From an uncultured Alphaproteobacteria bacterium (GTDB lineage: Bacteria; Pseudomonadota; Alphaproteobacteria; GCA-002720895), in assembly GCA_902607475.1 (NCBI GenBank), contig CACLKH010000008.1:1-40193 (forward strand): a stretch of 40,193 bases of DNA. Direction: 5' to 3'. The notes beneath the pieces are model-generated. The model worked only from the letters and a program-made list of their open reading frames with translations. It searched no databases and was not told the DNA's origin. Positions 4,040 through 21,514 of this stretch are shown here, one piece after another. Position 1 is the first letter of the stretch; each line of letters begins with the position of its first letter. Both the position numbers and the translations under genes were made by a program.

Positions 4040-4072
4040 TAATTTTTTGATTTATAGTATTTATTTTTTGAA

Positions 4073-4522
4073 ATGAAGAAAATTTTAGTTATAAACGGTC
4101 CTAATTTAAATTTATTAGGTGAAAGAGAGGTTGAGATTTATGGTAAAACTTCTTTAGAAGATATAGAAAATGAAACAAGAAAATTTGCTAAAATCAATAA
4201 GATAGATGTAGAATTTAAACAAAGTAATGAAGAATCAGAAATTATTAATTGGATTCAAGGTTGTATGAAAAACAACTACAAAGGTTTATTAATTAATGCA
4301 GGCGCCTATACTCATACTTCTATAGCAATATTTGATGCGCTAAAAGCAATTAAAATTCCAATTGTGGAAATTCATTTATCTAATATACATAAAAGAGAAG
4401 AATTTAGAAAAAAATCATTTATTTCTGAAGTAGCAGACGGAGTTATTTTTGGATTTGGTTCTTATAGCTACATTTTAGCAATAATGGCTATAAATAATTT
4501 ATTAACAAATAAAAATGATTAA
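4073..4522 (+). CDS. aroQ: Type II 3-dehydroquinate dehydratase
   Basis: Catalyses the reversible dehydration of 3-dehydroquinate to 3-dehydroshikimate in the shikimate pathway (cytoplasm, dodecamer in known members). Standard length at 149 aa. Motifs: ILVINGPNLNLLGEREVEIYG with the catalytic Tyr at 23, INAGAYTHTS with substrate-binding Asn/His, and VEIHLSNIHKREEFR with the catalytic His at 101. It starts the operon aroQ-accB-accC-aat; its stop overlaps the accB start by 8 bases (ATGATTAA), suggesting translational coupling. This aroQ-accB-accC order is common in alphaproteobacteria. Chorismate synthase of the same pathway is encoded separately at 29945-31027. Confidence 0.96.
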   Translation: MKKILVINGPNLNLLGEREVEIYGKTSLEDIENETRKFAKINKIDVEFKQSNEESEIINWIQGCMKNNYKGLLINAGAYTHTSIAIFDALKAIKIPIVEIHLSNIHKREEFRKKSFISEVADGVIFGFGSYSYILAIMAINNLLTNKND

Positions 4523-17583: not shown

Positions 17584-17602
17584 GATAATGATTATCATTA
17601 TC
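17584..17602. promoter_or_regulatory. Fur box, near-perfect consensus
   Basis: GATAATGATTATCATTATC matches the classical 19-base Fur consensus (GATAATGATAATCATTATC) at every position except the central base, where the palindrome has no constraint. It lies immediately downstream of a TATAAT -10 (17575-17580), so bound Fur-Fe would cover the start of transcription of the iron-binding protein gene at 17623. It is about 70 bases before the divergent decarboxylase gene, whose possible -10 is TATAAT on the minus strand at 17559-17554. Confidence 0.85.
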
Positions 17603-17622: not shown

Positions 17623-18660
17623 ATGTTTAATAAAAAAAAAACCTTAATTTCTATATTGGCCATCTTTTTTGTTAGTTTTATATTTATTATTTTAGAATCA
17701 AAAACAGAAAATGAATTAAATATATACTCAGGACGGAAATCACATTTGATAAAACCATTAATTAATGAGTTTGAAAAAAGTAAAAAAATAAAAATCAATA
17801 TAATAACAGGAAAATCTGATGCATTTATAGAAAGATTAAAACTTGAAGGAAAAAATACAAAAGCAGATATTTTACTAACAACTGATATTACTAGACTCTC
17901 AAGAGCAAAACAAAATAATTTATTTGAAAAAGTTAATTCAGAAATATTACGAAAAAATATTCCATCTAAATATATTAGTAAAGATAATGATTGGTTCGGA
18001 CTATCAGTTAGAGCGCGTCCAATAATTTTTTCAAAAGTTAGGGTAAATATAAATGACTTAGAAAATTATGAACAACTTGCTAATGAAAAATGGAAAAATA
18101 AAATTTGTATGAGATCATCAGCCAATGTATATAACCAATCTTTAATTGCATATATGATTTTAAATTTAGGGGAAAAAAAAGCTGAAGATTGGATAAAAAA
18201 TTTAGTAATCAATTTTGCAAAAAAACCTTATGGGGGTGATAGAGACCAGATAAAAGCTATCGCAAATGGTGAATGCGATATCACTGTTGCAAACACGTAT
18301 TATTTAGCGAATATGATTAACAGTAAAAACAAAAAAGATAGGGAAGCTGCTGAAAAAGTATCTATATTTTGGCCTAATCAAAGGAATATTGGAGCTCATA
18401 TAAATTTAAGTGGAGCTGGGGTAATTAAAGGTTCAAAAAATTACAAAAATGCGGTTATTTTTTTAGAATTTTTATCTTCTAAAAAGGCACAAGAAATATA
18501 TTCAAAAAATATACATGAATATTCAATCAGAAATGATGTTTTGCCTTCGGAAACTGTGTCAAAGTTTGGAAAATTTAAGGCGGATGATACAAAATTAGAA
18601 GAAATAGGAAAAAAAATTAAAATTGCTATATATCTAGCATCAAAACATAATTGGAGATAA
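17623..18660 (+). CDS. Fe(III) ABC transporter substrate-binding protein (FbpA/IdiA family)
   Basis: Periplasmic ferric-iron binding protein of the FbpA/FutA/IdiA class. 345 aa, with an N-terminal hydrophobic segment after KKK (residues 7-25) that is a signal peptide or anchor. The mature part begins ELNIYSGRKSHLIKPLINEFEK, the typical start of this family, and contains GKSDAFIERLKLEGKNTKADILLTTDITRL, GLSVRARPIIF and the paired iron-ligand tyrosines in DITVANTYYLANM. A Fur box directly upstream fits iron repression. The permease and ATPase genes are not adjacent, so the transporter partners must be encoded elsewhere. Confidence 0.92.
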   Translation: MFNKKKTLISILAIFFVSFIFIILESKTENELNIYSGRKSHLIKPLINEFEKSKKIKINIITGKSDAFIERLKLEGKNTKADILLTTDITRLSRAKQNNLFEKVNSEILRKNIPSKYISKDNDWFGLSVRARPIIFSKVRVNINDLENYEQLANEKWKNKICMRSSANVYNQSLIAYMILNLGEKKAEDWIKNLVINFAKKPYGGDRDQIKAIANGECDITVANTYYLANMINSKNKKDREAAEKVSIFWPNQRNIGAHINLSGAGVIKGSKNYKNAVIFLEFLSSKKAQEIYSKNIHEYSIRNDVLPSETVSKFGKFKADDTKLEEIGKKIKIAIYLASKHNWR

Positions 18661-18740
18661 ATTAAAATAAAAGAAGTAAGGAGCCGGTATATTTGAGGGA
18701 GAATTAATGGCCCCTTACTTAATTTTATAGAAATCTATAA
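18661..18740 (-). ncRNA. Candidate sigma-dependent small RNA with anti-Shine-Dalgarno loop
   Basis: The minus strand between the iron-binding protein gene and the protease gene has all parts of a short regulatory RNA. An ECF-type promoter (18747-18771) points left, and the predicted start is near 18740. Then come a small 6-bp inverted repeat (TATAGA/TCTATA), a 12-bp hairpin (18720-18674) and a U-rich tail, CTTTTATTTT. Predicted length is about 75-80 nt. The hairpin loop carries TCTCCCTCA, complementary over 9 bases to the ribosome binding site of the sigma factor gene (20098-20106). On the minus strand the stem has a G-U pair where the plus strand would have an A-C mismatch, so the RNA is more likely made from the minus strand. 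No known RNA family is recognised. Confidence 0.45.
18674..18720 (-). terminator. 12-bp hairpin, Rho-independent terminator of the candidate sRNA
   Basis: Arms AAGTAAGGAGCC (18674-18685) and GGCCCCTTACTT (18709-18720) flank a 23-base loop. Read on the minus strand all 12 positions pair (one G-U) and the stem is followed by CTTTTATTTT, a fair terminator tail. Read on the plus strand there is one A-C mismatch and a weaker AATTTTAT tail, but it could also stop transcription from the iron-binding protein gene that ends 13 bases before. Confidence 0.6.
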
Positions 18741-18746
18741 AAAATT

Positions 18747-18771
18747 AACGAAAATTGTAAAATTTTATTCC
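18747..18771 (-). promoter_or_regulatory. Predicted ECF-sigma promoter C, driving the candidate sRNA leftward
   Basis: On the minus strand the sequence reads TGGAATAAAATT, then CGTT with exactly 16 bases between GGAAT and CGTT. The pattern and spacing match two other sites beside the ECF sigma factor operon (20048-20072 and 21214-21238). GGAA(C/T) with CGTT is in keeping with known alphaproteobacterial ECF promoter elements. No ORF starts downstream on this strand, only the hairpin RNA. Confidence 0.55.
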
Positions 18772-18799
18772 ACTTTAATTAAAAAATTATTATTTAGTG

Positions 18800-18805
18800 T
18801 ATAAT
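18800..18805 (+). promoter_or_regulatory. Possible -10 element for the protease gene
   Basis: A consensus TATAAT stands 26 bases before the GTG start at 18832, so transcription would start near 18811-18813. That lies downstream of the TTG (18805) used by the ORF track and therefore favours the GTG as the true start. No convincing -35 is present, and the ECF-type pattern is absent on this strand. Confidence 0.35.
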
Positions 18806-18831
18806 TGATAATTGATATTAATTATTTAGTT

Positions 18832-20047: not shown

Positions 20048-20072
20048 GCAATAAAAATCTTCTATTTACGTT
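20048..20072 (+). promoter_or_regulatory. Predicted ECF-sigma promoter A, upstream of the sigma factor gene
   Basis: TGCAATAAAAAT followed by CGTT, with 16 bases between GCAAT and CGTT, starts right after the protease stop codon. Transcription would begin near 20079, giving a leader of about 30 bases with the ribosome binding site GAGGGAG. The same element with identical spacing precedes the gene at 21248. Its position implies that the sigma factor activates its own operon. Confidence 0.6.
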
Positions 20073-20097: not shown

Positions 20098-20106
20098 TGA
20101 GGGAGA
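20098..20106 (+). promoter_or_regulatory. Ribosome binding site of the sigma gene, predicted sRNA target
   Basis: TGAGGGAGA lies just before the ATG at 20108 and is an unusually strong Shine-Dalgarno for this window, where many genes have none. The same nine bases occur in the loop of the hairpin at 18694-18702 on the plus strand, so the minus-strand RNA from there carries the exact complement. Confidence 0.55.
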
Positions 20107-20107
20107 T

Positions 20108-20704
20108 ATGAAGAAAAAAAATACAACAATAAGGCAAGAGGCTCGTGAATGTTATGGAGATTTATTAAATTATACTAAGTTTAATTTAACCCTAAACCAT
20201 CACGATGCAGAGGATTTGGTTTCAGAAACATACATAAAATTTTTTAATTCATACGATAAAGGAAGAAGTAATTATAAAGAAGGTACAAATATTTTAGGAT
20301 ATTTAAAATTAATTGTTAAAAATTTATATATAGATAGGACTAGAAAAAAAAAAAGATCCCCAAACGTTATTTCTCTTCACAAAAAAACAGATGATGGAGA
20401 AATCATCAATTTTGATGAATATAAGTCACAAAAACTTGAAAAAGGTGAGGAAAATTTAAAAGATCCATTTGCTTTAAATGTAGATATTAAAAAAATTCTA
20501 GAAAAAATGGATAAATTACTTTCTCAAGAAGATAAAGAAATATTTTTCTTAATATTTGTAGAAGGATATAAATATAATGAAGTAGCAAAAAAACTCAAAA
20601 TTTCACAAGGAACAATAGGAAGTAGATTAAATAGAAATCTAAAAAAAATTAGGCAAGAATTAGACGAAAAAAACGTTGTTAAAATCAAGGAATTTAAAAA
20701 ATGA
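20108..20704 (+). CDS. ECF-family RNA polymerase sigma factor
   Basis: Alternative sigma factor of the extracytoplasmic function class, 198 aa. Region 2 is at residues 15-80: DAEDLVSETYIKFFNSYDKG with the core-binding and -10 helices, then LGYLKLIVKNLYIDRTRKKKRS. A polar linker with an Asp/Glu/Lys-rich stretch follows, and region 4 is at 135-185: LSQEDKEIFFLIFVEGYKYNEVAKKLKISQGTIGSRLNRNLKKIRQ, a clear helix-turn-helix. Its start overlaps nothing and has a strong GAGGGAG site. The stop overlaps the anti-sigma start by 4 bases (ATGA). No NepR or PhyR genes are nearby, so it is not the standard EcfG general stress system. SAR11 isolates are, to my recollection, very poor in sigma factors, so this one is notable. 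Confidence 0.9.
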   Translation: MKKKNTTIRQEARECYGDLLNYTKFNLTLNHHDAEDLVSETYIKFFNSYDKGRSNYKEGTNILGYLKLIVKNLYIDRTRKKKRSPNVISLHKKTDDGEIINFDEYKSQKLEKGEENLKDPFALNVDIKKILEKMDKLLSQEDKEIFFLIFVEGYKYNEVAKKLKISQGTIGSRLNRNLKKIRQELDEKNVVKIKEFKK

Positions 20705-21204
20705 AAATTGATGATAGTAAAATAATCAAGTTTATTAATAATGATCTTTCTAGATCAGAAAAAAATAAAATTCAATTATTAATAAATAATAATCCAAAAA
20801 TAAAATTTAGAGTTGAAGGCTTAAGGAATTTTAGTTCTATTCTTAAAGAAGAGTCTAAAGCTAATAAAAAAACAAAAATGCCTAAAAATTTATATGAAAA
20901 AATATCTGTCGAACAAAGTACTAAAAAAAGATATGTTTCAAATAATTTTAGTAATTTTTATAGAATAGCAGCTGGTATCCTTGCTTTTGTTTTAATAGGT
21001 TGGGTAATAACTATGCCAAATAAAACCTATTTGTCTCAAAAAAGTTATTTAACAGATAAAAATTATTATTCGTCTAAAATTTATTATACTAAATCTGAAA
21101 GAGACCAATTTCTTTCTAAATACGATAACTGCAAAGCCGATAAACAAAAAATGTTTGATGAAAACAATGAAGAAGTGTTTCCGGTAATTTGTAAAATAGA
21201 TTAA
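20701..21204 (+). CDS. Putative membrane anti-sigma factor
   Basis: 167 aa, translationally coupled to the sigma gene by an ATGA overlap. Residues 1-70 are charged and helical (KIIKFINNDLSRSEKNKIQLLINNNP...FRVEGLRNFSSILKEE), as in cytoplasmic anti-sigma domains, and can be read as a zinc-less version because the HxxxCxxC motif is missing. One transmembrane helix spans about 86-105 (FYRIAAGILAFVLIGWVITM). The periplasmic part (106-167) is short, Tyr/Lys-rich, and ends with two cysteines (144 and 164) that could form a disulfide. Gene order, topology and coupling support an anti-sigma role; no motif proves it. Confidence 0.7.
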   Translation: MKIDDSKIIKFINNDLSRSEKNKIQLLINNNPKIKFRVEGLRNFSSILKEESKANKKTKMPKNLYEKISVEQSTKKRYVSNNFSNFYRIAAGILAFVLIGWVITMPNKTYLSQKSYLTDKNYYSSKIYYTKSERDQFLSKYDNCKADKQKMFDENNEEVFPVICKID

Positions 21205-21213
21205 AAAAAGTTT

Positions 21214-21238
21214 GCAATAAAAATTCAAAAGTTTCGTT
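21214..21238 (+). promoter_or_regulatory. Predicted ECF-sigma promoter B, upstream of the small exported protein
   Basis: TGCAATAAAAAT followed by CGTT with 16 bases between GCAAT and CGTT; the first 12 bases are identical to promoter A and the spacing is the same. CGTT ends only 9 bases before the ATG at 21248, so the transcript would be almost leaderless, in keeping with the missing ribosome binding site. Confidence 0.6.
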
Positions 21239-21247
21239 CTATTAACT

Positions 21248-21514
21248 ATGAAAAATAAATTAATATACCCTATTTATGGTATTCTATTCATCTTCCTTCT
21301 TTCTGTTGGTAAACTAGCAATTTCAAAGCAACCAGTTGATACTGCATTTCCTGGCACAAGATGGTTAGAAATGGATAATTTTATTGGTGCAAGTAAAGCT
21401 AATATAGATGAGTTAAAAGAAGCAACAATTGAGCCAATTGAATTTGCTGAGGATATATCAATACCTGAGTTACCTAATTTACAAGATATCCCTCTTACAG
21501 AAGAAGATAAATAA
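21248..21514 (+). CDS. Small exported acidic protein, function unknown
   Basis: 88 aa, no family recognised. The N-terminus KNKLIYPIYGILFIFLLSVGKLAIS is a signal peptide or single anchor. The rest is short and acidic (ELKEATIEPIEFAEDISIPELPNLQDIPLTEEDK) with several prolines and looks unstructured. One Trp and a Gly-rich turn (FPGTRWLEMDNFIGASK) form the only compact-looking part. It sits 43 bases after the anti-sigma gene and has its own copy of the ECF-type promoter, so it is probably a member of the regulon; it could be a signal ligand, envelope protein or accessory regulator. No ribosome binding site is seen. Confidence 0.65.
   Translation: MKNKLIYPIYGILFIFLLSVGKLAISKQPVDTAFPGTRWLEMDNFIGASKANIDELKEATIEPIEFAEDISIPELPNLQDIPLTEEDK

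Follow-up and report, generated by a model that had tools for sequence, protein, structure and literature searches.

The window analysed here, a stretch of 40,193 nucleotides from an uncultured alphaproteobacterium, contains a gap of 171 bases (18661-18831) between the stop codon of a solute-binding protein gene and the GTG start codon of a trypsin-like protease gene, just as the preliminary description had measured it. On the minus strand of this gap lies a candidate sRNA gene, and 1.4 kb away, on the plus strand, is the gene of an ECF sigma factor, followed by genes for a probable membrane anti-sigma factor and for a protein of 88 aa (Table 1). The gap is 77-81% identical in three (G001, G002 and G003) of the four other genomes of the genus, with the same flanking genes every time, and the sRNA, the solute-binding protein gene and the sigma factor gene co-occur in these three genomes and in that of the window itself (G000). 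None of the three was found in G004 by sequence and protein searches, nor were the sRNA and the sigma factor found in G005; these absences are weak evidence because the two genomes are 79% and 54% complete, respectively. A search of contigs with the neighbouring gene returned one distant relative only. Directly upstream of the solute-binding protein gene, the sequence GATAATGATTATCATTATC (17584-17602) forms a near-perfect 19-bp Fur box, and G001 has a similar sequence upstream of the gene. Based on this Fur box, the gene probably encodes an iron-binding protein under Fur control, its best family matches being generic.

Table 1. Positions of the genes and sequence elements at the sRNA and sigma factor locus.
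Feature	Position	Strand	Remarks
Solute-binding protein gene	17623-18660	+	Left flank of the gap
sRNA gene (candidate)	18665-18740	-	77-81% identical in G001-G003; uncertain 3′ end, located at the hairpin or past it
Hairpin	18674-18720	-	5′ arm 18720-18709, loop 18708-18686, 3′ arm 18685-18674; z = -4.1; covariation
Invariant loop motif TCTCCCTCAA, predicted seed	18693-18702	-	Identical in four genomes
ECF-type promoter of the sRNA	18747-18771	-	-35 GGAAT (18771-18767), 16-base spacer, -10 CGTT (18750-18747); conserved G000-G003
Trypsin-like protease gene	18832 (GTG)	+	Right flank of the gap
ECF-type promoter of the sigma factor gene	20048-20072	+	GCAAT-N16-CGTT (GGAAT in G001, G002); conserved
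Ribosome-binding site of the sigma factor gene, TGAGGGAGA	20098-20106	+	All 9 nt complementary to the sRNA loop
ECF sigma factor gene, proposed activator and target	20108-20704	+	TIGR02937, 72 bits (cut-off 42.9); Pfam sigma-70 regions 2 and 4
Probable membrane anti-sigma factor gene	20701-21204	+	Overlaps sigma stop; single hydrophobic segment; unmatched in Pfam and NCBIfam
Third ECF-type promoter	21214-21238	+	GCAAT-N16-CGTT (GGAAG in G002); before the 88-aa protein gene; conserved
88-aa protein gene	21248-21514	+	N-terminal hydrophobic stretch; no family match; conserved ECF-type promoter of its own

The 12-bp stem and the C-rich loop of 23 nt first noticed in the gap were confirmed. The minus-strand fold of a 121-nt segment has an energy of -25.3 kcal/mol, compared to a mean of -13.9 for shuffled sequences, and none of 200 shuffles folded as well; its presence in three further genomes takes the hairpin well past a chance occurrence. 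Ten core stem pairs form in all four sequences, and three pairs have changed on both sides (U-A/C-G, G-C/A-U and C-G/U-A), while slid controls gave 0 or 1 such pairs; the compensatory change around a conserved loop that the preliminary description had proposed to look for is present among the four sequences available. The loop sequence UCUCCCUCA is without change across G000-G003. A covariance model matched 4 of 385 genomes of the class, all of them in this genus. The hairpin matched no named RNA family, in line with the preliminary description: Rfam gave no matches in the window at the gathering score, and relaxed thresholds gave weak, chance-level ones only. A mobile palindrome was ruled out, since the stem sequence has no second copy elsewhere in the genome.

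The preliminary description had taken wobble pairing as a sign of the transcribed strand, and this argument was sustained in part. In G000, one stem pair is G-U on the minus strand and A-C on the plus strand, and G003 adds another of this kind (U-G on the minus, A-C on the plus). The asymmetry favours the minus strand and is modest evidence, because one pair at the loop edge in G000 goes the opposite way. The hairpin might instead function on the plus strand, where it would end or protect the solute-binding protein mRNA, the conserved TTGATTTTATAG behind the stem serving as a weak U-tract and no independent sRNA being made. The gene ends at 18660, 13 bases before the stem, and the sequence that lies 3′ of the stem on the plus strand is better conserved than its counterpart 3′ of the stem on the minus strand. 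However, the core pairs are all standard on the minus strand while two of them become A-C on the plus strand, the 3′ tract is interrupted by A and G, and a terminator needs neither an invariant loop motif nor the opposing ECF promoter present in the four genomes. We regard this explanation as improbable. Far less credible still is a plus-strand mini-gene (18693-18730), in which GAGGGAGA and the seven-codon frame that starts with ATG behind it (MAPYLIL) would act as a translated leader or a decoy ribosome site. The peptide reads MAPYLIL in G000 and MTPYLIL in G001, with an identical site, but G002 has neither ATG nor GTG, G003 is shifted to a frame of 16 codons, and the codons change as stem pairing requires. 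This mini-ORF was rejected because it is lost in G002 and G003.

A minus-strand sRNA gene is thus the best reading of the gap, given the conserved ECF promoter, the covarying stem, the invariant loop and the lack of an Rfam family. Its 3′ end is less clear. The U-tract CTTTTATTTT that had been proposed to follow the hairpin is U-rich in the window's genome only and not in G001-G003, and a terminator scan of the region, which allows loops of at most 8, found none, so that the 3′ end of the sRNA and the originally proposed length of 75-80 nt are unproven. Directly before the stem, TTTCTATAAAATC (18719-18742, minus strand) hardly varies among the four genomes; it may belong to the RNA or represent a second -10-like element.

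The sigma-70 promoter originally assigned to the sRNA did not withstand comparison with shuffled sequence, the region giving 18 matches versus 17.1 expected by chance. A different promoter is indicated by the element GGAAY-N16-CGTT (GGAAT or GGAAC), which lies directly upstream of the RNA at the equivalent minus-strand position in all four genomes, with a constant spacer length and always 26 bases upstream of the stem. Judging from the position of its -10 CGTT, transcription would start near 18740, approximately 20 bases before the stem. Counting this one, three sites of the form GSAAY-N16-CGTT lie within 2.5 kb, before the sRNA, the sigma factor gene and the 88-aa protein gene, and all are conserved across the four genomes, deviating by no more than one base. 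Only 0.33 such sites are expected per window, and none of 300 shuffles of the window placed three in 2.6 kb. As read from the DNA, the motif is in its sequence and spacing of the published ECF promoter form: EcfG promoters are GGAAC-N16-CGTT with GCAAC variants (PMC7083833), and SigH/SigE promoters combine GGAAT/C with GTT or cGTT (PMC10012870). Genome-wide, GGAAY-N16/17-CGTT showed no enrichment over the reversed control, which argues that the regulon of the ECF sigma factor is probably small and allows no claim of a broad one.

The sigma factor that would recognize these promoters has a SigH-type model as its best NCBIfam match, and no other homologue of it was found in the window's genome. 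A protein search gave one homologue in each of the four genomes (70-79% identity among them) and none in G004 or G005. Based on its position and the layout of the operon, the product of the gene that follows is a probable membrane anti-sigma factor, possibly of a new type. The 88-aa protein is a probable member of the regulon of this sigma factor and likely a main protein output of it.

The sRNA loop points to a target within this same operon. UCUCCCUCA is complementary to UGAGGGAGA (20098-20106), one base before the ATG of the sigma factor gene, which ranks first by far among 44 candidate gene starts in the window (-16.6 versus -9.2 kcal/mol for the next). In three genomes, just 1 or 2 shuffled loops in 1000 equalled this pairing. 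The heptamer GAGGGAG has two occurrences in the 40-kb window, one complementary to the sRNA loop and the other in the sigma factor ribosome-binding site. Complementarity of the loop to the sigma factor mRNA start is conserved: the site TGAGGGAGA is exact in G001, giving 9 nt of perfect pairing as in G000, and G002 has AGAGGGAGA, which retains GAGGGAGA, with a seed of 8 nt. In G003 the site is altered to GTGGGGAGA and the pairing is rearranged; its own loop still pairs there (12 pairs, one bulge, -17.4 kcal/mol), better than the approximately -12 to -13 kcal/mol that the other three loops give at this site. The G003 pairing is weaker in the seed, and shuffled G003 loops equalled it in 5.7% of trials. 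It looks as if loop and target site coevolve, a pattern that comes from the one species represented by G003. In G001 (L047, around 4044-4090), the apparent ATG of the sigma factor gene follows CGTT by 9 bases and coincides in part with the pairing site ATGAGGGAGATT, and the sigma factor mRNA of this species may be nearly leaderless.

A C-rich loop is able to base-pair with numerous Shine-Dalgarno sequences, so that other targets are possible, and an sRNA dependent on the ECF sigma factor might act mainly on other mRNAs, either as a general anti-Shine-Dalgarno RNA or as an effector like GsrN, with the match at the sigma factor site being secondary. The ECF promoter evidence fits this explanation equally, and three other genes of G001, one of them ferredoxin-like, carry GAGGGAG before their apparent starts. 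GsrN of Caulobacter crescentus provides a precedent, being an alphaproteobacterial sRNA made under the ECF stress sigma factor SigT that places an unpaired C-rich loop on a G-rich leader, that of katG, which it activates, with no feedback on the stress sigma factor or on stress-response transcription (PMC5869019); its likeness to the present RNA lies in the C-rich loop under an ECF stress sigma factor. Against it, the sigma factor gene is the only real gene start in the window's genome with GAGGGAG before its ATG and the sole such start found in more than one genome, and its pairing energy stands far apart from the rest of the window. We therefore consider a principal role on other mRNAs unlikely, although less so than the plus-strand readings.

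From the conserved hairpin, the promoter motifs and the complementarity retained among genomes, we infer that the sRNA is made, that the sigma factor drives its synthesis and that pairing represses the sigma factor mRNA. In the proposed circuit, the sigma factor would be released from its probable anti-sigma factor, and in its free form would turn on its own operon, the 88-aa protein gene and the sRNA through the G[G/C]AAY-N16-CGTT promoters. The sRNA would fold into a single hairpin exposing UCUCCCUCA in its loop, which would pair with UGAGGGAGA of the sigma factor mRNA, block translation initiation and thereby close a negative feedback loop. The explanation that we favour, and judge reasonably probable, is that the sRNA depends on the ECF sigma factor and represses the mRNA of this sigma factor by placing its loop on the ribosome-binding site; such an sRNA would probably act as an inherent brake on the stress response. 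The preliminary description was supported in proposing an sRNA gene, its promoter and terminator proved wrong or unproven, and it had overlooked the ECF promoter, the link to the sigma factor and the likely target.

Matches to the Hfq profile PF17209 were found in none of five incomplete genomes, in which control profiles did match. The enterobacterial sRNA RybB, by comparison, depends on Hfq. With somewhat less assurance than for the feedback itself, we tentatively suggest that the locus represents a minimal self-limiting ECF module of a streamlined uncultured lineage, composed of a sigma factor, an anti-sigma factor and an adjacent sRNA made by the sigma factor, with silencing of the ribosome-binding site in one step, apparently free of Hfq, and with seed and target coevolving. 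If the feedback explanation is right, a small, apparently AT-rich and regulator-poor genome devotes one of its regulators to an RNA brake on what is apparently its only copy of such an ECF sigma factor, and the position of the brake beside the sigma factor operon makes both readable from DNA alone. The locus would then offer a ready test of RNA feedback on ECF sigma factors beyond the Hfq-based enterobacterial model, and an ECF promoter together with the ribosome-binding site of the sigma factor itself could be used to predict sRNA targets in uncultured bacteria.

Several published systems resemble parts of the proposed circuit. In Rhodobacter sphaeroides, StsR, an sRNA of 72 nt, lowers rpoE mRNA in an RpoE-RpoHII-StsR loop (PMC8307010). 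Like the RNA proposed here, it is a short sRNA under the control of an alternative sigma factor and acts in negative feedback by base pairing close to the start of an ECF sigma factor mRNA; unlike it, StsR is driven by RpoHI/RpoHII and not directly by RpoE, has its pairing site 10 nt into the coding region and is associated with Hfq (PMC8307010), whereas the present locus has an ECF-type promoter, a seed over the ribosome-binding site and an sRNA adjoining the sigma factor locus, with Hfq undetected in the five incomplete genomes. RybB of Escherichia coli is likewise an RNA of approximately 80 nt made under an ECF sigma factor, RpoE, and engaged in negative feedback, with reported regulation of rpoE (PMC12249550, PMC8081044). 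However, RybB chiefly targets mRNAs of outer-membrane proteins, and the level of rpoE mRNA was unchanged in one study (PMC8081044). No sequence relation to RybB was found, Rfam being unmatched. In the unrelated lineage of Acinetobacter baumannii, the ECF sigma factor SigAb has, according to the accessible text of PMC12153292, a tiny direct regulon consisting of its own operon, one gene and the sRNA SabS; that text reports no feedback on sigAb. The Rhizobiales sRNAs of the NfeR1 type, with the C-rich loop CCUCCUCCC, share anti-Shine-Dalgarno-like loops (PMC3927594, PMC10746234); compared with these sRNAs, the RNA described here has a single hairpin with UCUCCCUCA and no Rfam match. The type of circuit is therefore known from RybB/rpoE and StsR/rpoE, while the RNA family and the one-step, sigma-adjacent loop appear to be new relative to the published systems compared, and here the promoter, the predicted sRNA and its putative target are all in one locus.
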